In this document: positions 1 through 20,270 of the stretch, piece after piece | Numbering within the stretch: position 1 is the first letter of the stretch | Layout of the letters: each line of letters begins with the position of its first letter | Assembly: GCF_013388255.1 (NCBI RefSeq) | Contig: NZ_CP058215.1 | Location: forward strand, 1,488,001-1,552,000 | Origin: Methanolobus zinderi | GTDB lineage: Archaea; Halobacteriota; Methanosarcinia; Methanosarcinales; Methanosarcinaceae | Direction of reading: 5' to 3' | DNA: 64,000 bases | Program-made: the position numbers and the translations under genes | Notes under the pieces: generated by a model | Seen by the model: only the letters and a program-made list of their open reading frames with translations | The model's database searches: none | Told to the model about the DNA's origin: nothing

Positions 1-366
1 CGGCAATACGCCCTTAAGTGTCTGATTATCCCTTTCGATGGCTGTCATGGCATCATCAACAAGCTTGCCAATGGTGGGGCGCTTGGCGTTCTTCTCAATG
101 TATTCCCAGCGGGCTTCAGGTGGCACCCAGAAGATATTCTCTGCAAGATACTCATCCGGGTCCTCGGAATCGGAATACTCATCCTCTAGCAGTTCATTGA
201 ACTTCTCTTCAAAAGCATCGGAAATATATTTCAGAAAAATAAGACCCAGAACCACATGTTTGTACTCGGCGGCATCCATATTGTTTCTGAGCTTATCAGC
301 CGCCTGCCACATCTTTTCTTCAAAACCAAGGTTCGCACCATTAGAAGCTTTTTTATCCTTAGCCAT
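1..366 (-). CDS. hsdM: Type I restriction-modification methyltransferase subunit HsdM, N-terminal part (runs off window)
   Basis: The minus strand reads open from an ATG at 366 to the window edge, giving 122 codons that begin [10 protein letters not shown]. The segment contains the hallmark N-terminal helical domain of HsdM: a [19 protein letters not shown]-like stretch followed by [11 protein letters not shown]. In type I systems this domain contacts HsdS and precedes the SAM-dependent adenine methyltransferase domain, which lies outside the window. It differs clearly from the second HsdM at 10791-12239, which starts with another N-terminal subfamily, so the two belong to separate type I systems. 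The catalytic motifs cannot be checked here. Confidence in the family is high; whether the gene is complete is unknown. Confidence 0.88.
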
Positions 367-7647: not shown

Positions 7648-10600
7648 ATGGAAGCTCATTGCATAAAGAAAGACAATCATGATTATCCATTCTTTGAAAT
7701 AATGGAGTTGTATCAGGCACCCGGCTCACCTGATATGATACTTAAAAGAGCTGTTGATGAGATACCCGGAATTTTCCTGGCTCACGGAAAAGTTTCATCA
7801 AGAATTATCTGGAAGAACAGGTTCTTTGATTCACCTGATTTTGACAAGAAGGGCAGAAGGCTAACAAGTGAGATTGTGGTCAACGGAAATCGGGATGGAG
7901 TAATAGAGGTCTATTTCAATAAAGTTCAGACAGAGATCGGTAAATGGGATATGCCATCTTTCCCTTCCAGAAACAGTAACTTATTGCTGGACAGGATATC
8001 AAAATTTATAGGGAGCTTGCTTGAAAAGGATTCTCTCATAAATCTTTTGACAGAATCCGAAGCAAATATGAGAAATATTCTGGACAGACTCCAGGAACAT
8101 ATTTTTGTACTGGACAGCAGAGGTAATATCCTGGACTGCAACAGATCTTCAATGGATTGTCTTAATTTCGGATGTAACCAGATAGCTGGATTCAGGCTTG
8201 CAGATACGGGGTTTCTTGATCCACAAACTATCGACGAGATTATTGAGAACACATTGCTTTCAGGCAGGTTCAGCCTTGAGATTGAGTGCCATTGTCCTGA
8301 TGAGACTACCACAGTATGGATCGATTCCTGTTGTATGGATTACAACAAAGAACAAGCAGTCCTGTGTATAATCCGGGACATCTCAAAATCAAGAGAATAT
8401 GAGGACGAACTGAAAAAACAGGCAGAAGACTTAAAGAGTTCCGGGGAACTCAAAGAACTTTTCATCGATATTATCCGCCACGACCTGCTGACACCTGCCG
8501 GAATCATCAAAGGGTTTACAGAGGAGCTTTTATTAGGCCCCTCGGAAGAAGAAAAATATATGGCTATCCGGAAAATATACGAGAATACAAACCGCCTGAT
8601 AGAACTGTTGGACTCGGCCACAAAATTGAGCAAACTACAAAAAGTTGAAGAGATACCGTTCCAGAGTATGGATTTAGTGCCTTTCTTTTTGATGGTGGCC
8701 GAAAGTCTCCAGATCCAGGCACAGGAAAGAAGGCAGCAGGCTCTTGAATATACACACATGATGGACCTGCCATTTGCTTTTAGCTCCAATGGTGATGCTT
8801 TTCTTTTTCATGACCGCTCGGGAAATTCCACTAACGTAGAGAAGGAACTTTCCTTGGACAGTTTTCCAACTCCTGATGAGTTATGGGAGTCATATTGTAA
8901 ATGGAAAGGTATAGACACTGCTAAGCCAAGTCTGGTAGATCAGGACTATTATACAGACTTTACAGGAAAGGCTCCGCGTTATTACCAGTTGAATGCTATA
9001 AATAAAACAATAGAAGCAATAGCCAAAGGACAGAACCGTATACTGCTTGTGATGGCCACTGGCACTGGTAAAACATATACTGCTTTTCAGATCATATGGC
9101 GGTTGTGGAAATCAAAAGCAAAAAAGAGAATTCTTTTCCTGGCTGACAGAAACATCCTTGTGGATCAGGCAAAAACCAATGACTTCAAACCGTTTGAAGG
9201 TGCAATGACAAAGATCCAGAATCGTCAGGTGGATAAGTCTTATGAGATCTATCTATCGCTGTACCAGGCAGTAAGTGGTTCAGAGGAAGAGAAGAACATC
9301 TATAAGCAGTTCTCAAGAGACTTCTTTGACCTTGTTGTCGTTGATGAGTGTCACAGAGGAAGTGCTGATGAAAATTCGGCTTGGAGGGATATTCTGGAAT
9401 ACTTCGATTCTGCAACTCAAATAGGTATGACAGCCACTCCGAAGGAGACTAAGGATGTTTCAAATATCGAGTACTTTGGAGATCCAATTTACACATACTC
9501 ATTGAAGCAGGGTATAGAAGACGGTTTTCTTGCACCTTACAAGGTTATTCGTATCGATCTTGACAAGGACCTGCAGGGATGGAGGCCTGAGAAGGGACAG
9601 CTTGACAGATACGGCAGGGAGATAGAAGACCGTATTTATAACCAGAAGGATTTTGATCGTGAGGTTGTGCTGGAAAAGAGAACAGAGATTGTTGCCAAGA
9701 AGGTTACGGAATTCCTAAAAGCCACCAATCGCTATGATAAGACCATTGTTTTCTGTGAAAATATCGATCATGCTGAGAGAATGAGGCAGGCCATAGCAAA
9801 CGAGAATCCCGATCTTGCTGCTGATAGTAAATATGTGATGAGGATTACTGGTGATGAGCAGGAAGGTAAGGCTGAGCTTGACAATTTCATTATGCCTGAT
9901 AGCCGATATCCTGTAATTGCTACAACATCTAAACTGCTAAGCACGGGAGTCGATGTTCAGACTTGCAAACTCATTGTGCTTGACAAAAGAATTAAATCGA
10001 TGACTGAGTTCAAGCAGATAATCGGACGTGGAACCCGTATTAACGAAGAGTTTGACAAACTGTTTTTCACAATTATTGATTTTAAGAAGGCTACCGAATT
10101 GTTTGCTGATCCTGACTTTGATGGAGAACCAGTGGATGTATATGAAGGCAAGGGCTCTATCAAGTTAAAACCCAACCTGCCACGGCAGAAGATCAAGCCC
10201 TATAGAGTTTCTGATGTGGGAGTGTCAATTGTTGCTGAGAGGGTGCAGTATTACGGAGCTGACGGCAAATTAATCACTGAATCGATCAAGGATTACACCC
10301 GTAAGACTTTGCTGGACGAATTTGACTCCCTTGACCTGTTCCTGCAGTACTGGAGTGAACACGGCAAAAAGACGGCTATTGTGCAGGAGCTGGAAGATAA
10401 GGGACTGTTGTTGGATGCTCTTGCTGAGGAAGTGGGTCGTGAGTATGATCCATTTGATCTAATCTGTCATGTGGTGTTTGACCAGCCGCCACTTAGCCGC
10501 AGAGAAAGGGCTAACAACGTCAGAAAGAATGGCTATTTTGAAAAATATGGGGATAAAGCCCGTGCTGTTTTGGATGCATTGCTTGAAAAGTATGCAGACG

Positions 10601-10758
10601 AGGGCATAAGAAACCTTGAAGACCTTGATATTCTTCGAGTTAAACCTCTGAGTGAAATTGGAACTCCCATGGAGATCATCAAGCTCTTTGGTGGAAAACA
10701 GAAGTTCATGGATGCTGTTAATGAGATAGAAACACAGTTATACATGGCTGAAGCTTAA
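7648..10758 (+). CDS. Chimera: sensor kinase N-terminus (GAF-like/PAS/HisKA) fused to HsdR translocase lacking its nuclease domain
   Basis: Residues about 1-360 are a cytoplasmic methanogen sensor kinase: a GAF-like region also seen in the kinase at 43519, a PAS domain (about 150-250) and a HisKA helix with His278 in [11 protein letters not shown]. Near residues 360-366 (8725-8745) the sequence changes abruptly to HsdR. QQALEY and [14 protein letters not shown] are the HsdR segment that normally follows the PD-(D/E)XK nuclease core. The helicase part is intact: Walker A MATGTGKT (469-476), DECH (566-569), MTATP, and QIIGRGTR (790-797). The kinase HATPase domain and the HsdR nuclease Asp and ExK residues are therefore both missing. 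The frame is unbroken. It could be a real recombination product or an assembly join; restriction activity is not expected. Confidence 0.85.
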
Positions 10759-10790
10759 GGTAGCAGAGATTCTTGGATGAGGCTAAAACG

Positions 10791-12239
10791 ATGTCAATTA
10801 GTACTACTATTAAGGGCATACAGGACATAATGCGAAAAGATGCTGGTGTGGACGGAGACGCACAGCGCATCAGTCAGCTTGTATGGATGGTGTTCCTCAA
10901 GATATTCGATGACAGGGAAGAAGAGTATGAGCTTATGGAGGACGACTATGTATCTCCTATCCCTGAACGTTTGAGGTGGAGAAACTGGGCGAAAGATCCG
11001 GAGGGAATTACCGGTGAAGAACTGCTTGATTTTGTGAATAACGACCTTTTCAAGACTCTCAAGGAACTGCAGTTCAATCCTGACTCAGATCCCCGTGGAT
11101 TTGTAGTAAGGGACGTTTTTGAGGATTCCTATAACTATATGAAGAACGGCACTCTGATTCGCCAGGTCATCAACAAGATCAATGAGATTGACTTTAATTC
11201 CAAGAAGGATAAACATCTTTTCGGGGATGTGTATGAGAAAATTCTCAAGGACCTTCAAAGTGCAGGAAATGCAGGAGAATTCTACACTCCCCGAGCAGTT
11301 ACTGATTTTATGGTTCAGATGGTAAATCCCAAGATTGGAGAGAGTTTGCTTGACCCTGCGTGTGGTACAGGAGGTTTCCTTGCATCTTCTATTGAACACC
11401 TGAGAAAACAGGCCAGCAGTGTTGAGGATGAGGAGAATCTTCAGAAATCCATCCATGGGATTGAGAAAAAGCCGTTGCCTCATCTGTTATGTGTTACCAA
11501 TATGATGCTGCATGGCATTGATAATCCGTCACAGATACGCAGGGATAATTCCCTGGCAAGACCTCTGAGGGATTACAAGCCGTCAGATAAGCTGGATGTT
11601 ATCATCACCAATCCTCCGTTTGGAGGTACGGAAGAAGATGGTATAGAAACTGGCTTCCCTGCATCCTACCAGACAAGAGAGACAGCCGATCTTTTCCTTG
11701 TGCTTATCGTTCATCTGCTCAAGGACGGTGGACGAGGTGCTATAGTCCTTCCTGATGGTACACTGTTTGGTGAGGGTGTAAAGACACGTATTAAAGAGAA
11801 ACTGCTTGAAGAATGCAATCTGCACACTATTGTACGTCTTCCAAACGGTGTCTTCAACCCATATACAGGCATCAAGACCAACCTGCTCTTTTTCGAAAAA
11901 GGTGAGTCTACCAAGGAGATCTGGTACTACGAGCATCCGTATCCAGATGGCTATAAGTCCTATTCCAAGACAAAGCCCATGCGTATTGAGGAGTATGAAC
12001 CTGAAAAGGCATGGTGGAACAAGCGTGAGGAAAATGAGTTTGCCTGGAAGGTCAGCATAGATGAGATCAGGGCTAACAACTACAACCTTGATATTAAAAA
12101 TCCACATGTGGAGGACATCGATCACGGAGATCCTGAGGAACTTCTTGAGGACTACAAGGCCCTTCTCTCAGATATCGAAGATACTCGCAATACTCTGAAA
12201 GCAGAACTCATGGCAGCTCTTGAGGGTAAAAGCACATGA
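10791..12239 (+). CDS. hsdM: Type I DNA adenine methyltransferase subunit HsdM
   Basis: 482 residues from the ATG at 10791; a TTG at 10773 is an alternative. The N-terminal helical domain is followed by the N6-adenine methyltransferase domain with GEFYTPRAVTDFMV, the SAM motif LLDPACGTGGFL and catalytic motif IV ITNPPFGG. It methylates the hemi-methylated target chosen by HsdS and is needed for both modification and restriction complexes. It starts about 30 bases after the chimeric hsdR stop and overlaps hsdS by four bases (ATGA), so hsdR-hsdM-hsdS is one transcription unit. All catalytic motifs look intact, so this enzyme may act as a solitary methyltransferase now that HsdR lacks its nuclease. 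Confidence 0.95.
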   Translation: MSISTTIKGIQDIMRKDAGVDGDAQRISQLVWMVFLKIFDDREEEYELMEDDYVSPIPERLRWRNWAKDPEGITGEELLDFVNNDLFKTLKELQFNPDSDPRGFVVRDVFEDSYNYMKNGTLIRQVINKINEIDFNSKKDKHLFGDVYEKILKDLQSAGNAGEFYTPRAVTDFMVQMVNPKIGESLLDPACGTGGFLASSIEHLRKQASSVEDEENLQKSIHGIEKKPLPHLLCVTNMMLHGIDNPSQIRRDNSLARPLRDYKPSDKLDVIITNPPFGGTEEDGIETGFPASYQTRETADLFLVLIVHLLKDGGRGAIVLPDGTLFGEGVKTRIKEKLLEECNLHTIVRLPNGVFNPYTGIKTNLLFFEKGESTKEIWYYEHPYPDGYKSYSKTKPMRIEEYEPEKAWWNKREENEFAWKVSIDEIRANNYNLDIKNPHVEDIDHGDPEELLEDYKALLSDIEDTRNTLKAELMAALEGKST

Positions 12240-13939
12240 ATGCTGTAACTTTTTTTGAGAACTTCTCCCTTCTCTCTGAATCACCTAATGGAATTCAGAA
12301 GTTACGTGAGATGATCCTACAGATGGCGGTACAAGGTAAGCTTGTACCACAGGATCCTAATGATGAGCCTGCTGAAGTATTGTTGGGGAAGATTAAAAAC
12401 GAGAAGGAAAAGTTAGTGAAGGAAGGTAAGATAAGGAAATCTAAGAAATTACCACAAATCGAAGAAGATGAAATTCCTTTTAAAATACCAGACAGTTGGA
12501 TCTGGACTCGTCTTAATGAAATATATGATGTAAGAGATGGAACTCACGACAGTCCAAAATATCAAAAAGAAGGCGTACCTCTCGTTACAAGCAAAAATAT
12601 ATCCAGTGGAAAGCTTGACTTATCAAATGTAAAATTTATATCTGAGGAAGATCACCTTAAAATTTCACAAAGATCAAAAGTGGACAAACATGACATTCTG
12701 TTTGCAATGATTGGAAGCATTGGAAACCCGTTAATAGTAGATGTGAATACAGAATTTAGCATCAAAAACGTTGCTCTTTTTAAATATTATTCATGTGAAT
12801 ATTCAAGTCCTTGGTACTTATACTATTTTCTAACTTACGCAGCTAATACTATGCGTTCAAAAGCAGCAGGTGGTGTTCAATCATTTGTGTCACTGGGATT
12901 TTTGAGAAAATATTTAATTCCACTCCCACCTCTCGAAGAACAAAAGCGCATAGTCGCTAAAGTTGACCAACTCATGGAACTCTGCGACCATCTTGAATCC
13001 CTGCAACAGAAAAAACAGGAAAGCCACATTCACCTAAACAATGCTGCCCTCAACAAGATGCTCGACGCAAGCAGTCCAGAGGAATTTGAAGAAAACTGGC
13101 GACTTGTATGTGAGAACTTCGGGTTGTTGTATGATAACCTCGAAAATGTGGAGAAGCTCAAGCAGTCTATTTTACAGCTTGCGGTGATGGGAAAGCTTGT
13201 TGAACAGGATGCTAGTGATGAGCCTGCTGAGGTGATGTTGGAGAAAATTAAGACTGAAAAGGAACAGCTTCAAAGTATTGTAAATATAAGAAACTCCAAG
13301 TCACTTCAACCTGTTGAAGCAAATGAATACCCGTTTGAAATACCAGAAGGATGGCTTTTTTCACGAATAGGCAATTTGTTCTTAATTTCAAGTGGAACTA
13401 CCCCTAGCCGAACAAAACACCATTATTATGAAGATGGGACGGAAAACTGGGTAAAAACTACAGATTTGAATAACAGCTTAGTTTTATCTTGTGAAGAAAA
13501 AATTACTTTACAAGCAGTTGATGACTGCAACCTCAAATATTATCCAAAAGGTACTGTTTGTGTAGCTATGTACGGTGGTGCAGGAACTATAGGGAAATCT
13601 GGAATTCTTGGAATAAAATCTACAATAAATCAATCAGTATGCGCAATAGTCCCAAGCAGTTTTGTAGACTCAAGTTTCTTGCACTATTATCTCAAATCAA
13701 TCCGTTCAGATTGGATGAAATTTGCAGCAGGTTTGAGAAAGGCACCAAATATAAATGCTAAGATTGTCCGAAACATGATTTTCCCTCTTCCACCCCTCGA
13801 AGAACAGAAACGTATTGTAGCCAAGGTCGATCAGCTGATGGAACTTTGTGACAGGCTTGAAGCTGGCATAAGGCAGGCTCAGGAAGATGGTGAGAAGTTG
13901 ATGGAAGTTATGGTTCATGAGCTTTTAACACAAACATGA
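12236..13939 (+). CDS. hsdS: Type I specificity subunit HsdS
   Basis: 567 residues with the expected two-fold plan. The conserved helical segment LREMILQMAVQGKLV near the start recurs as LKQSILQLAVMGKLV in the middle, and PPLEEQKRIVAKVDQLMELC occurs after each target-recognition domain. The two variable domains, roughly residues 80-230 and 360-520, are more AT-rich than the conserved parts, which is usual for exchanged DNA-recognition modules. The protein sets the bipartite DNA target for HsdM and HsdR. The start codon overlaps the hsdM stop. No sign of truncation or of duplicate silent hsdS cassettes in this window. Confidence 0.95.
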   Translation: MNAVTFFENFSLLSESPNGIQKLREMILQMAVQGKLVPQDPNDEPAEVLLGKIKNEKEKLVKEGKIRKSKKLPQIEEDEIPFKIPDSWIWTRLNEIYDVRDGTHDSPKYQKEGVPLVTSKNISSGKLDLSNVKFISEEDHLKISQRSKVDKHDILFAMIGSIGNPLIVDVNTEFSIKNVALFKYYSCEYSSPWYLYYFLTYAANTMRSKAAGGVQSFVSLGFLRKYLIPLPPLEEQKRIVAKVDQLMELCDHLESLQQKKQESHIHLNNAALNKMLDASSPEEFEENWRLVCENFGLLYDNLENVEKLKQSILQLAVMGKLVEQDASDEPAEVMLEKIKTEKEQLQSIVNIRNSKSLQPVEANEYPFEIPEGWLFSRIGNLFLISSGTTPSRTKHHYYEDGTENWVKTTDLNNSLVLSCEEKITLQAVDDCNLKYYPKGTVCVAMYGGAGTIGKSGILGIKSTINQSVCAIVPSSFVDSSFLHYYLKSIRSDWMKFAAGLRKAPNINAKIVRNMIFPLPPLEEQKRIVAKVDQLMELCDRLEAGIRQAQEDGEKLMEVMVHELLTQT

Positions 13940-14668: not shown

Positions 14669-16663
14669 TTAGAGACCTAATTTGTCAAAAAAGGCACGGT
14701 GTTTCTTGTTAGCACTACTTATCAATTTGTCATAGGACAATATTTCAACGTAAGCATTGAACTTCCCATGATATAGATAATATCCCATCCCATCTTTTAA
14801 TGGATGAAATTGCCTTTCTTCTGCATCCTTTTTTACAGAATCATTTATGTCACAAATAGCAAAACAATAAAACTTAGTTGAGTCATTTATGTTAATGTCT
14901 CTTCCATTTTCCTGTTTTATTTTCTTATTTTTTATGTCTTCTAGTATTTCGTACATCTGAACTACAGGAGATTTATCATAATCTTTTCTTTGAGGACGTT
15001 TTAACTCGATAACGGAAACTGCATTAGCTATTTTATCATCATTTACATCTTCAAAAATAATCATATCGGGACGTAGATCACTATCAGAATCAGAAAAATC
15101 TCTTAATGGTTTGTCTGATGCTGCATATTGGTGATATGATAATACGTCATCAATTATCCATAGATTATGATCTTCGTATGACATGTGATTTGTTTCAGTT
15201 CTCCTTGGGAACAAGATGTCATGGATTATTGATTCCAGTTCATACTTTCCATCTTCTCGGAGTTCTAGCTTTTTCTCAAAAACTTCAAGTATCTTTTTCC
15301 TTTTGATTAGGTACTGAGCCAAATCATCTTTTTGAAAGTCATGGAGTTTGTTGCATAACTGCTTGCAATCATCCTCAATATCAGAAACACTGTCATATTG
15401 GGTCTTAAGTAACTTTTCCGTATCATTCCTGATATTGAATTCTGCTACACCTTTATGTTTAAACAGTGCTTCATTTATTTTTGCATCCGAAGCATTTACA
15501 TCGATTTCGTCAAGAACCTCAGGGCAGTAATGAGGAACAGATTTTAATGAGGGAGTACTTGCAACATAATTCGCTATTCTTTCTTTTTTAATCTCATTAA
15601 CACGAGTAAGATAGCTTTCTAAATATTCCTTTGATTTCTCTATTACATGATCGCGAATTATATTCAACGGATATGTTTTTTTGTTATCGAGAGATACCTG
15701 AATCCCATTTTTAGGTAGTTCGAAGCCTCTTCGGGATGAGTTCACATATTTATCTAAATAACTTCCCGAAACATAAACAGAATACACAAACTTATTGTCA
15801 TCATCATCTAACTGCGATGGAGTTCCCAGGTACTTATCTAATTTGTCACCATCAACATCTCTATTGTGGGCACAGTATACTATTTTATGTGCTTTTTGAT
15901 ATGTGTTATAGAGCTTAAGATGTGAGATTCTGTAAGTATCGTCATATATTCTGATGTCTTCAGAAACTATATTATTTTTAATTTTAAGGAACATCATGTT
16001 AAGATCAAAACTATCATCGTCATCTTTGACAATAATCCTTGGAGCTATGTCGTTGATATAGTATACCAAACAATGTTCCAAAATCCTTTGTGCAATCTTT
16101 TCAGTTGTTTTATAGGCACTTGGTTCAGTCCTATAGCTTTCTTTGAACCCCTTTAAAAGAACTGTAGTTTTGTGTTCTGCATTTGCATCTGCAGATTTCT
16201 TAAAGTGATTGCTAATAAAATTATCAATTGTAAAATCAAAACTTCTAAATTGTTTTTGTTTTTGCTTGTCTAGATAAACACTTGTGATTTTAACGTTATC
16301 GAACGCTTTTAACCAAGTGAATCTTCCGACACCTTTGCCACCTTTTTGTAGTTTGTAAGTGCTGTCAGAAGTGAGAAAAGAGCTATAGTTTTCTTCTGTA
16401 AACCCAATTCCATTGTCTGTTATCCCAAATGCTTTAATTATTTTTTCCTCTTTGAGGGTATCTGAATCACTTAGTCGTACTTGAACAACATTGTCTCGGA
16501 CAACTTTGACAGTTATCAATCCATCATGGATATCATTGTTATCTTCTATCGAATGGATCGAGTTTACAACCGCTTCAAATACGGGCAATAAAGCTTCCGA
16601 TTTGAAATCACCTAAATTTCGGATTTTACCTTTGAGATCAGCTCTTAAATACTCCTCAGTCAT
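14669..16663 (-). CDS. GHKL (HSP90-like) ATPase with C-terminal PD-(D/E)XK-type nuclease domain
   Basis: 664 residues. The N-terminus has the full Bergerat ATP fold: N-box Glu30...Asn34 in FEAVVNS, G1 DNGIGF at 83-88 and G2 GGKGVGRF at 108-115. A long middle region looks like a transducer plus coiled helices. Near the C-terminus RPDMIIFE (Asp533) and VIELKRP (Glu553, Lys555) form the Asp/Glu-x-Lys constellation of a PD-(D/E)XK nuclease. This combination suggests an ATP-gated DNA-cleaving defence protein; the precise system name is not known to me. It is transcribed opposite to its neighbours, is AT-rich, and has a 10-bp inverted repeat just upstream. Confidence 0.72.
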   Translation of the reverse strand: MTEEYLRADLKGKIRNLGDFKSEALLPVFEAVVNSIHSIEDNNDIHDGLITVKVVRDNVVQVRLSDSDTLKEEKIIKAFGITDNGIGFTEENYSSFLTSDSTYKLQKGGKGVGRFTWLKAFDNVKITSVYLDKQKQKQFRSFDFTIDNFISNHFKKSADANAEHKTTVLLKGFKESYRTEPSAYKTTEKIAQRILEHCLVYYINDIAPRIIVKDDDDSFDLNMMFLKIKNNIVSEDIRIYDDTYRISHLKLYNTYQKAHKIVYCAHNRDVDGDKLDKYLGTPSQLDDDDNKFVYSVYVSGSYLDKYVNSSRRGFELPKNGIQVSLDNKKTYPLNIIRDHVIEKSKEYLESYLTRVNEIKKERIANYVASTPSLKSVPHYCPEVLDEIDVNASDAKINEALFKHKGVAEFNIRNDTEKLLKTQYDSVSDIEDDCKQLCNKLHDFQKDDLAQYLIKRKKILEVFEKKLELREDGKYELESIIHDILFPRRTETNHMSYEDHNLWIIDDVLSYHQYAASDKPLRDFSDSDSDLRPDMIIFEDVNDDKIANAVSVIELKRPQRKDYDKSPVVQMYEILEDIKNKKIKQENGRDININDSTKFYCFAICDINDSVKKDAEERQFHPLKDGMGYYLYHGKFNAYVEILSYDKLISSANKKHRAFFDKLGL

Positions 16664-16727: not shown

Positions 16728-16941
16728 GTATATTTCTCTGCATTATCACGGCAATGTCTCCGTACTACATCTATCAGCGTTCATACCAATGCCAAACTTT
16801 ACCCGCAACTAGTATTTCATATCTGGTTTGATGAAGTTAATGTGTTTAACTCAATTTGTTTAATTATCAGCTAGACAAAGCGGAAATATTATAATATATT
16901 TTAATCATTATCTTTATATTCTCTAAAAGTTGTGTGAACCT

Positions 16942-18048
16942 ATGTGTGGAGACTGTGAAAAAGATTTAGATAGTTTAATTGAACGAGATTCTTATAGCGA
17001 TCTTTCTGATGAACAATTGGCTGAGTTGAGTCGCGAAAGTCATTTGCCTAGTTTTAAAAAAAGTTTTCTTACAGAACTATCAAAACTTTTTAAAACAAGT
17101 TCGTTTTTATGTAATCATTGTATTGATGATTTTTTAAAAAAATGGGATGGTTTTGCTATAATAAATTCAGAATTTAAGGAAAGTGAGATATCATTATCCT
17201 CTTTTTATTACCAATCATCGTTGTATGAACTTTACAAAGAAGATGATTTTGATATTTTTGTTGATATGATGGGTTGTTCCCGTTGTGAAAATGGAGATAT
17301 CACTTCTATTTGGCCTTATCCAAATAATTTAGATGTACTGTTCGATTTATACGATGATGAACTGAAAGCAGTTGCAAAACTTGCTGAAAAGTGTCCATTT
17401 GCCATATTAACGGATGATTTTGCTTCCAAAATTTATAGTATGCTCAAGCAACTGTCTGAGAAATCAACAAATCTATGCTTAGACTTTAAGTTCTATAGGT
17501 GTAGAAATTTAGACGATGAAGCCGTATTATTTTCTCGTCAGGATATGGGTCCTGTACCTGATGAAAAAGCACAAGAAAACAGATTTAACCATACTGGTTA
17601 TGGTTATTTATATTTAGCAACAACTGAAGATGTTAGCTTTGGTGAAGTGACGTATTCCTCCAACGGACCAAGAAAAAAACAAGTTTGTATGGCTGAAATA
17701 AGGTTACTAAAAAGCCTTAAAATATTAGATTTGACAGATGTTCAGGGTAACAATCATAAAGATGACACCTATCAAATGTTAATCTGCTCACCATTAGTAT
17801 ATAACCATCCAGATAATAAAAACAAATTTCAAAATAAAATGTATGCTACTAAAGAATATATATTTACAAGGTTCATCGCAGACTGTGCTCTTTCTTTGGG
17901 ATTTGATGGAATAAAATACGCGAGTAGATTTGGTAGAAGTGGTGACAATTTCGTAATATTTAAAGACAAAACAAATAAACAATTTAAATGGGATGAAATT
18001 TTCATAATTGATGATATTTATAGATATCCAAAAAACGATGATGATTGA
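16942..18048 (+). CDS. RES-domain protein with cysteine-rich N-terminal domain (NAD-degrading toxin family)
   Basis: 368 residues from the ATG at 16942; an in-frame TTG at 16930 is possible. The C-terminal half matches RES: FYRCRNL, then RFNHTGYGYLYLATTEDV with Arg214 and Glu235, then DGIKYASRFGR with Ser328, the Arg-Glu-Ser trio that names the family. RES toxins such as MbcT degrade NAD by phosphorolysis. The N-terminal half has CxxC pairs (MCGDC, LCNHC, CSRC) suggesting a zinc-binding domain, as in HEPN/RES N-terminal domain proteins. Free RES toxins are usually half this length and paired with an Xre-type antitoxin. No Xre gene is seen here; the downstream gene at 18131 could take that role. 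Confidence 0.75.
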   Translation: MCGDCEKDLDSLIERDSYSDLSDEQLAELSRESHLPSFKKSFLTELSKLFKTSSFLCNHCIDDFLKKWDGFAIINSEFKESEISLSSFYYQSSLYELYKEDDFDIFVDMMGCSRCENGDITSIWPYPNNLDVLFDLYDDELKAVAKLAEKCPFAILTDDFASKIYSMLKQLSEKSTNLCLDFKFYRCRNLDDEAVLFSRQDMGPVPDEKAQENRFNHTGYGYLYLATTEDVSFGEVTYSSNGPRKKQVCMAEIRLLKSLKILDLTDVQGNNHKDDTYQMLICSPLVYNHPDNKNKFQNKMYATKEYIFTRFIADCALSLGFDGIKYASRFGRSGDNFVIFKDKTNKQFKWDEIFIIDDIYRYPKNDDD

Positions 18049-18130
18049 TGTAGAAATATACGAACAAGTAGTTTTCTTGCCATTTGATATGTAGTAATTG
18101 TACAATGCTTCTCAAGCTAGGATGGTTATC

Positions 18131-18721
18131 ATGCTTCCAGATTATCCTGAGATTAAAAAGATTATCCAAACAAAATTTGAACGATTAATAAATGAAGAAT
18201 CAAAAAAAGGTTCATTTCTATCGGTGATTCGTGAAAAAAGAATCTATGAAGGTGATTTTTTGGAATCAACTTCAATCGACGGATATCTGGATAAAAGGGA
18301 ATATGCTGAAATCTCTGAAACTTTTAGTGTAACGAAAGAAGAAATAATCGAGAAAGGCTTTGATGCATATTTTGAACAAATACCTGAAATAGCTCAAAAA
18401 ATAAAAAACAGTAAAGAGAAGCAAATTATAGATAAAATAGATGAAGTTACAGATAGAGTTGGTAATGTTATAAATGGTAAATCAAAATCTTTCGCTGAAA
18501 ATTATCTAGAAGTATTAGAGAAAATGTCTATTTCTTTTGATGAATATGGATTTCCTATAATTCCCACATTAATTGTTAGTCCTGAATTTTACGAAAAATC
18601 TAAAGATGAAATCTCCGCATTCGATGAAGATCCTGTTATGAAAAAGAAGTTTAAAGATATAATCTACAAGAAAAAAGGTGAGTGGCTTGATAAAGAGGAT
18701 AATAGAAAACTGGTTGACTAA
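18131..18721 (+). CDS. Unknown 196-residue protein between RES and nuclease genes
   Basis: Not recognised. The sequence is acidic and lysine-rich, helical in appearance, and has no membrane segment. The ATG at 18131 is chosen because TAGGATGGTTATC gives it a ribosome site; an ATG at 18122 and a TTG at 18098 are in frame. It begins about 80 bases after the RES gene and its 3' end overlaps the next gene by 44 bases, so the three genes probably form one operon. From position alone it could be an antitoxin or immunity partner for the RES protein, or an accessory subunit of the following nuclease. Confidence 0.6.
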   Translation: MLPDYPEIKKIIQTKFERLINEESKKGSFLSVIREKRIYEGDFLESTSIDGYLDKREYAEISETFSVTKEEIIEKGFDAYFEQIPEIAQKIKNSKEKQIIDKIDEVTDRVGNVINGKSKSFAENYLEVLEKMSISFDEYGFPIIPTLIVSPEFYEKSKDEISAFDEDPVMKKKFKDIIYKKKGEWLDKEDNRKLVD

Positions 18722-20270
18722 AACTAATGAAAAAGGTTATCAAATTCCTTTTTGTCAATATCTTATTTCACAAAAGCATACAATTGTTTATATTTCACCG
18801 CATGGACCTATGGAACAAGGAAAAGATATTATTTCCATTGATAATAATGGGGAAGTCTATGCATTTCAGCTAAAAGGTGGAAACATTAACTTAACTGAAT
18901 GGAGAAAAATAGAAGGAGAAATAAGTGAGTTAATAGAAGTTCCTGTAAAGCATCCTTCCATAGATTATTCCGTATTCCATAAACCATTTCTAGTCACTAA
19001 CGGAGAGATTTCGGACCCTGTAAGAGTTAATATCGTTGATAAAAATAGACGTTATGAACAATTAAATTTACCGAAACTAGAAGTGATTACAGTTTCTCAG
19101 TTAGTGAGCAAATTTGTTGATGTACATGGCTCATTTTTACCAGTTCAACCATCTGATTTTCGTGTTTTTTTGGAACTCTTTCTTTCGGAAGGTACTGGAC
19201 CTTTAAAAGCTGAGTTATATGTAGATTTTTTAAAATCAATTCTTGTAATTGAAAATGCAAAAAAAATAGAGCTTCAAAGAAGAATTGCTAGTAGCATTCT
19301 ATTAACACAATATGCATTGCAACCCTATGAAACAAAGAATAATTATGTTTCAGCAATAGAAGGATGGACAATACTTTGCAGCTATATTTTCCGGCTCGTT
19401 GATGAGTTTCAAATAGAAGAGAAGTATTGGAAGAATTCATATGAGATTATACTAAGTAAAATTAATGATTTGTTAAATCTTCTTAAGAGTGAGTTTCTTG
19501 GAAGAGATAATTACATAGAAGGTTCATCTTTGGGTGATGGTGGATTATTATACAAATCAAGATTAACTATTGTTCTTGGTTGGTTGTCTGCGTTTGAACT
19601 ATTTAATAAAGTGGTAAAGGACGACTATCAAATTGATAATAGGGTTTATGATAGCATAAAGGCGCTTTATCCCAATAATACTTGGTTCTGGGGCGAGTCA
19701 GCAACACCATTTTTTGTCATGATGAGTTTTTTGTCATGGGAAGTTGAAGATAAACAACTTGCTAATGGAATAATTAGTAATTTGATATTGGATATAACCT
19801 ATGGGAATGCTTATGACGGCATAGGTACTCCTGATCCATATATTTCTTTAGAAAAAATACTTGCAGTAAATTATAATGTTTCTGAACTTGATTTTGATTT
19901 TAAGTCATTTATTGGTTCATCATACCATTTAGAGGCACTCGTGGATATCCTAGTTCGAAGAAATAAAAGAGAACAACTAGATATTTTATGGAAAGATATT
20001 TCATTTATCCAAAAAAGCAAATTTATTCCAGAACACATATGGGATTTTTTCTTGTGGAGATGTAGCAAAGGTTCTCAAGTTGACTCGTTCTATGAAAATC
20101 CTCAGAGCTATTCCAAATTAGCTTTAGAAGCTAATAATTCAGATGATCAAGTACCAATGATTTTGAGACACAACTTTTCTTTATTGTATTATTTGCTTAT
20201 GTGCTTTCCACATAGACTTAATCACCATTCTCTCAAATATATTGACGTGAATTTTGAAAACAAAGCATAG
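18678..20270 (+). CDS. Mrr-like PD-(D/E)XK nuclease-domain protein
   Basis: 530 residues from GTG 18678; a TTG at 18687 preceded by AGGTGA is an equally good start. The N-terminal domain has the restriction-endonuclease pattern GKDIISI (Asp50) followed by YAFQLKGG (Gln64, Lys66), the D...QxK form used by Mrr-like nucleases. The remaining 400 residues are helical and unrecognised, possibly a sensor or oligomerisation region. The 44-base overlap with the previous gene implies translational coupling. Composition is strongly AT-rich, and the context is a defence island. Likely substrate is foreign or modified DNA; this is inference. Confidence 0.7.
   Translation: MSGLIKRIIENWLTKTNEKGYQIPFCQYLISQKHTIVYISPHGPMEQGKDIISIDNNGEVYAFQLKGGNINLTEWRKIEGEISELIEVPVKHPSIDYSVFHKPFLVTNGEISDPVRVNIVDKNRRYEQLNLPKLEVITVSQLVSKFVDVHGSFLPVQPSDFRVFLELFLSEGTGPLKAELYVDFLKSILVIENAKKIELQRRIASSILLTQYALQPYETKNNYVSAIEGWTILCSYIFRLVDEFQIEEKYWKNSYEIILSKINDLLNLLKSEFLGRDNYIEGSSLGDGGLLYKSRLTIVLGWLSAFELFNKVVKDDYQIDNRVYDSIKALYPNNTWFWGESATPFFVMMSFLSWEVEDKQLANGIISNLILDITYGNAYDGIGTPDPYISLEKILAVNYNVSELDFDFKSFIGSSYHLEALVDILVRRNKREQLDILWKDISFIQKSKFIPEHIWDFFLWRCSKGSQVDSFYENPQSYSKLALEANNSDDQVPMILRHNFSLLYYLLMCFPHRLNHHSLKYIDVNFENKA

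Follow-up and report, generated by a model that had tools for sequence, protein, structure and literature searches.

A predicted GHKL ATPase-nuclease of the paraMORC3/VcSduA family beside a type I restriction-modification locus in the archaeon Methanolobus zinderi

Introduction

A gene in which an ATPase is joined to a nuclease, found among defence genes of a methane-cycling archaeon, raises two questions: to which system it belongs, and whether its product acts alone. The gene is located in a stretch of 64,000 nucleotides of Methanolobus zinderi, here called the window (contig NZ_CP058215.1, positions 1,488,001 to 1,552,000). The initial annotation had read it as a self-contained defence gene for which no described system could be named.

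Results

An intact reading frame with complete active sites

The open reading frame is present and intact, starts with ATG and encodes 664 amino acids in which, as had been claimed, a GHKL ATPase and a PD-(D/E)XK nuclease are fused. All the motifs on which that reading was built (Glu30/Asn34, DNGIGF, GGKGVGRF, Asp533 and Glu553-x-Lys555) are in place (Table 1), and the gene does lie on the strand opposite to its neighbours. An inverted repeat belonging to the gene, also proposed, found no support: only scattered imperfect pairs of 12-18 nt were detected.

The protein was aligned with relatives 32-48% identical to it, giving 60 sequences in all. The ATP-site residues E30, N34, D83, G85, G87, G108, G111, G113 and R114 are invariant in this alignment, as are E477, H481, E553 and K555 in the nuclease part, D533 being kept in 59 of the 60 sequences. 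With the invariant E477 added to D533, E553 and K555, the E-D-ExK set is complete. Judged from the alignment, conservation of the GHKL and nuclease motifs is far beyond chance.

Table 1. Positions of the GHKL-nuclease gene, its domains and motifs, and neighbouring genes in the window
Feature	Position	Strand	Basis or remark
Whole gene	14669..16663	(-)	664-aa GHKL ATPase + PD-(D/E)XK nuclease, paraMORC3/VcSduA family
GHKL (Bergerat-fold) ATPase domain, residues 1-200 (boundary approximate)	16064..16663	(-)	Invariant motifs; Foldseek Hsp90/GyrB/MutL; weak HATPase_c_3
N box, E30 (catalytic) to N34	16562..16576	(-)	Invariant in 60/60
G1 box, D83-N-G-I-G-F88	16400..16417	(-)	D83, G85, G87 invariant in 60/60
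G2/lid, G108-GKGVGR-F115	16319..16342	(-)	G108, G111, G113, R114 invariant in 60/60
S5-like transducer domain, residues 201-330 (boundary approximate)	15674..16063	(-)	Mixed alpha/beta in model; aligns with two-domain MutL/GyrB fragments
Long helical connector, residues 331-466	15266..15673	(-)	Model helices 333-369 and 393-466
PD-(D/E)XK nuclease domain, residues 467-664	14672..15265	(-)	E477/D533/E553/K555 conservation; Foldseek McrC, MspJI, Can2, HamA
D533 of nuclease motif	15065..15067	(-)	Kept in 59/60 sequences
E553-L-K555 of nuclease motif	14999..15007	(-)	60/60; K555 equivalent to VcSduA K557, by L099/L067 numbering
Fused ORF: PAS-HisKA half of a histidine kinase + HsdR without N-terminal nuclease	7648..10758	(+)	
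HsdM, type I methyltransferase	10773..12239	(+)	
HsdS, two recognition domains	12236..13939	(+)	
RES-domain protein, toxin-like	16930..18048	(+)	PF08808, E 8e-14

Predicted fold

The AlphaFold2 model of the whole protein had a mean pLDDT of 88.7, and Foldseek, proposed in the initial annotation and run against the PDB, found the ATPase part to resemble Hsp90, GyrB, Topo VI-B and MutL. An S5 domain follows the GHKL domain, as seen both in the model and in the Foldseek alignments with two-domain MutL/GyrB fragments, with modest overall TM-scores (about 0.3 by query length). The C-terminal 199 residues were modelled separately (pLDDT 75.6), and the nuclease fold expected there was matched, weakly: McrC, MspJI, Can2 and HamA were retrieved with E-values from 0.02 to about 1, unrelated proteins being interspersed. 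All four are PD-(D/E)XK enzymes. In the AlphaFold2 model, D533 stands just ahead of a predicted strand (534-540) and E553 ends the next one (546-554), a predicted placement that is as the PD-(D/E)XK fold expects.

Membership of the paraMORC3/VcSduA family

A family with this architecture has been described. Iyer, Abhiman and Aravind (2008) defined paraMORC3 by a GHKL domain, an S5 domain without the MORC-specific GhXhhpXXRhl motif and a C-terminal RE-fold carrying E-D-ExK; its members are scattered sporadically over bacteria and archaea and are either RM-linked or standalone (PMC2292703). The window protein likewise has a GHKL, an S5 and a C-terminal RE-fold domain and the E-D-ExK set, and its relatives show the same sporadic, mobile occurrence, RM-linked or standalone. 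The genetic links given there are to type III-like, SWI2/SNF2 and other SFII helicases (PMC2292703); the embedding of relatives in type I hsd operons (see below) differs from these, and neither it nor HsdM/HsdR is mentioned for the family in the accessible text.

The architecture "previously annotated as paraMORC3" is also that of VcSduA of Vibrio cholerae, a single-protein anti-phage nuclease with a GHKL ATPase and a PD-(D/E)xK domain, which Adams et al. (2025) classed as Shedu type I-D (PMC12137116). VcSduA guards E. coli against Drexlerviridae and V. cholerae against vibriophage X29; this protection is abolished by E27A or K557A, and the growth curves indicate direct restriction, with no abortive-infection kinetics (PMC12137116).

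Two relatives, L099 from Vibrio lentus and L067 from Aliagarivorans, have their catalytic residues at exactly E27 and K557, and both can be aligned with the full length of the window protein, at 32-33% identity (L099, 33% over residues 6-664). VcSduA itself was compared by residue numbering and architecture, the Vibrio relative that shares its numbering being about 33% identical to the window protein. In both VcSduA and the window protein a single polypeptide combines an N-terminal GHKL ATPase with a C-terminal PD-(D/E)xK domain in a mobile defence-island context; the catalytic Glu is at position 27 in the former and 30 in the latter, and the Lys at 557 and 555. They differ in that the window protein is archaeal and lies beside a type I RM locus, whereas VcSduA lies beside GrwAB. 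GrwAB was discarded as a candidate partner, the neighbours of L099 being housekeeping genes.

Full-length homology places the window protein, from an archaeon, in the paraMORC3/VcSduA family; the link to VcSduA is drawn from residue numbering, architecture and the Vibrio relative. The initial annotation was thus mistaken in finding no described system: it had taken a match to a named defence family as counting against its proposal, and such a family exists in paraMORC3 (PMC2292703), with VcSduA as a member proven to be anti-phage (PMC12137116). Its reading of the fusion as a defence protein agrees with the proven activity of this homologue.

Only a sub-threshold match to HATPase_c_3 was obtained for the window protein with Pfam, and none with NCBIfam. 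PADLOC, also proposed initially, was run and returned chance matches, naming no defence family; its JukA and Cas11 matches were rejected, occurring in 1 of 18 members and outside the catalytic domains. Current defence-annotation libraries (PADLOC 2023, NCBIfam and Pfam) therefore miss the family, which explains why the system could not be named before.

Relation to classical Shedu nucleases

Classical Shedu proteins (SduA, DUF4263/SduA_C) are likewise PD-(D/E)XK nucleases with the order E-D-ExK-Q, and are also found in type I RM operons (L010, L127). They have a different N-terminal region, and Pfam SduA_C matched none of 18 members examined, the window protein and 17 relatives. Profile comparison with 20 Shedu proteins gave a score of 30.7, with ExK in register, against a maximum of 20.4 in 40 shuffles; the N-terminal part of HsdR, used as control, scored 29.4. 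Because this control is nearly as high, the comparison proves PD-(D/E)XK kinship only, and a Shedu-specific similarity was rejected as inseparable from that to another PD-(D/E)XK family. The Shedu label is the published one.

Classical Shedu nucleases at L010 (6619-7998) and L127 (6001-7398) were observed in the slot of the GHKL-nuclease in type I RM operons, and at L010 the two kinds of gene are adjacent.

Distribution of the family

A single-sequence scan of genome contigs gave no relative; relatives were later found there with a profile from plasmid relatives. The profile, built from 18 relatives, was searched against bacterial and archaeal genomes and yielded at least 552 relatives. A profile search of PDB sequences gave no relative, and matches to ribosomal L18 in the PDB sequence search were dismissed as chance. 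By tblastn, 59 plasmid records were matched, in 51 of which a single place accounts for 80% or more of the query, and one phage was found to carry a relative. Among 150 related genomes, matches were present in 4 besides the window's own, one being merely a fragment. The distribution of the family is patchy and mobile, including carriage on plasmids and a phage.

The phage relative (L008:2485-4509, Phage vB_RanS_PJN03) adjoins a phage integrase; its annotation as N-acetylmuramoyl-L-alanine amidase is apparently an error. In another genus of the archaeon's family a degenerate remnant was detected (L005, G085:C2:215518-215634), with 56% identity over residues 623-661 and one stop; this points to gene loss. 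In the tree, L004 (from a genome belonging to the window's order) and the Candidatus Ethanoperedens protein L071 are identical, which would put the host among methane-cycling or alkane-oxidising archaea of this order.

Linkage of relatives to type I restriction-modification genes

Type I HsdM, HsdS or HsdR genes occur within 8 kb in 33 of the 101 loci of relatives, an approximate fraction, two loci being counted twice at different flank lengths (L002/L124, L003/L125) and many contigs ending early. The GHKL gene is co-directional with them in 30 of these 33 loci, the window gene being one of the 3 exceptions, and is usually the next gene after HsdS, the median distance to the upstream gene being 1.5 bp. 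Gene orders include HsdM-HsdS-GHKL-HsdR (L047) and HsdR-HsdM-HsdS-FRG-GHKL (L125); the hsd identities were confirmed by Pfam in sampled loci. No type I genes were found nearby in 44 of 76 scored loci, unlinked loci being counted only if at least 15 kb long.

Archaeal relatives have about 2-3 HsdM genes per genome, so that proximity by chance would be expected in roughly 2% of 16-kb stretches; this figure comes from archaeal control genomes, while the loci are mostly bacterial. Linked loci recur across the tree, in most major clades, where well-supported branches force at least 16 changes, and the closest archaeal relatives of the window protein (L002/L124, L003/L125, L020) are all linked to type I genes. 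This linkage suggests functional coupling of the GHKL-nuclease with type I RM.

Neighbourhood in the window

The setting is one of defence genes: the GHKL-nuclease gene is flanked by a type I RM locus on one side and by a gene for a RES-domain, toxin-like protein on the other. It is 730 bp from the HsdS gene, on the opposite strand, with a 212-aa open reading frame between them. The reading frame carrying HsdR is an in-frame fusion, whose residues 1-366 match a histidine kinase found undamaged in sister genomes and whose remainder corresponds to HsdR residues 80-772, with 86% identity to an HsdR from the same genus; the HATPase tail of the kinase is missing too. The HsdR segment lost in the fusion contains the nuclease motif ADYVL..IAIVEAK. 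The R subunit thus looks nuclease-dead, and the local type I enzyme is probably unable to cleave on its own, although its HsdM and HsdS seem complete.

The left edge of the window cuts through a second type I HsdM, at 1-321 (-), which continues outside (G000:C1:1487944-1488321), making two type I RM loci within about 11 kb. The RES-domain protein has a Cys-rich N-terminal half, and no obvious Xre-type antitoxin gene stands alongside. At 18678-20270 (+), overlapping the end of a 207-aa reading frame (18098-18721), a 530-aa protein is encoded that contains a stretch resembling restriction endonucleases, EQGKDIISIDNNGEVYAFQLKGG (D...QxK), and for which Pfam gave no convincing match. A tRNA-Val was considered as attachment site of the island and rejected, as neither end of the tRNA recurs in the window over 14 nt or more.

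Discussion

The window protein is very probably a single-gene anti-virus nuclease of the paraMORC3/VcSduA family, cutting invading DNA under the control of ATP. The N-terminal GHKL ATPase and the S5 module would dimerise on ATP binding and might then act as a clamp or sensor on DNA, the nucleotide state presumably licensing the C-terminal PD-(D/E)XK domain to cut invading DNA. The virus would be restricted directly rather than by killing of the cell. By analogy, the archaeal protein would act against viruses as VcSduA does. MutL, GyrB and Topo VI-B likewise combine an ATP-dimerised GHKL domain and a transducer with nuclease or DNA-cleaving activity; they differ in their unrelated nuclease domains and housekeeping role.

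The fold similarity to MutL and Topo VI-B could also mean a MutL-like DNA repair or mismatch nuclease with no defence role, and Iyer et al. raise recruitment to repair for the non-RM versions (PMC2292703). This is highly improbable given the very patchy distribution, the carriage by plasmids and a phage, the defence-gene neighbours and the proven anti-phage homologue VcSduA (PMC12137116). Nearly as improbable is that the gene is a decaying passenger of a damaged island: the neighbouring HsdR is a deletion fusion and a degenerate remnant of the family persists in another genus, but the reading frame of the window is full-length and retains every residue invariant in the family.

The main alternative, a role as accessory subunit or guard of type I RM, acting with HsdRMS or upon viral inhibition of HsdRMS, can be entertained only tentatively. 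Nucleases guarding type I RM have a precedent in PrrC of EcoprrI. Such a role would fit the linkage in 33 of 101 loci against the roughly 2% due to chance, with its co-directional, closely spaced genes and its recurrence in most major clades, as well as the short distance to HsdS in the window. However, both E. coli and V. cholerae are protected by VcSduA on its own (PMC12137116), more than half of the scored loci (44 of 76) have no type I genes nearby, and the window gene has the opposite orientation, an intervening reading frame and a local HsdR without nuclease. It seems somewhat more doubtful still that the GHKL-nuclease is a regular functional partner, as effector or guard, of type I RM in bacteria and archaea, in which case it may be the only active nuclease of the window beside the nuclease-less R subunit. 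The self-contained system proposed initially is plausible in that VcSduA acts alone; the closest archaeal relatives, however, belong to type I RM operons, and with many relatives so embedded, acting alone may not be the normal mode.

On the preferred reading, an anti-virus nuclease of the paraMORC3/VcSduA family, the window protein is genuine and intact, an ordinary representative, from an archaeon, of a defence family whose activity was proven only recently. With its catalytic residues all retained, it brings a methane-cycling archaeon into the range of this anti-phage nuclease family, and the association with type I operons points to a testable link, the part of the finding worth following.
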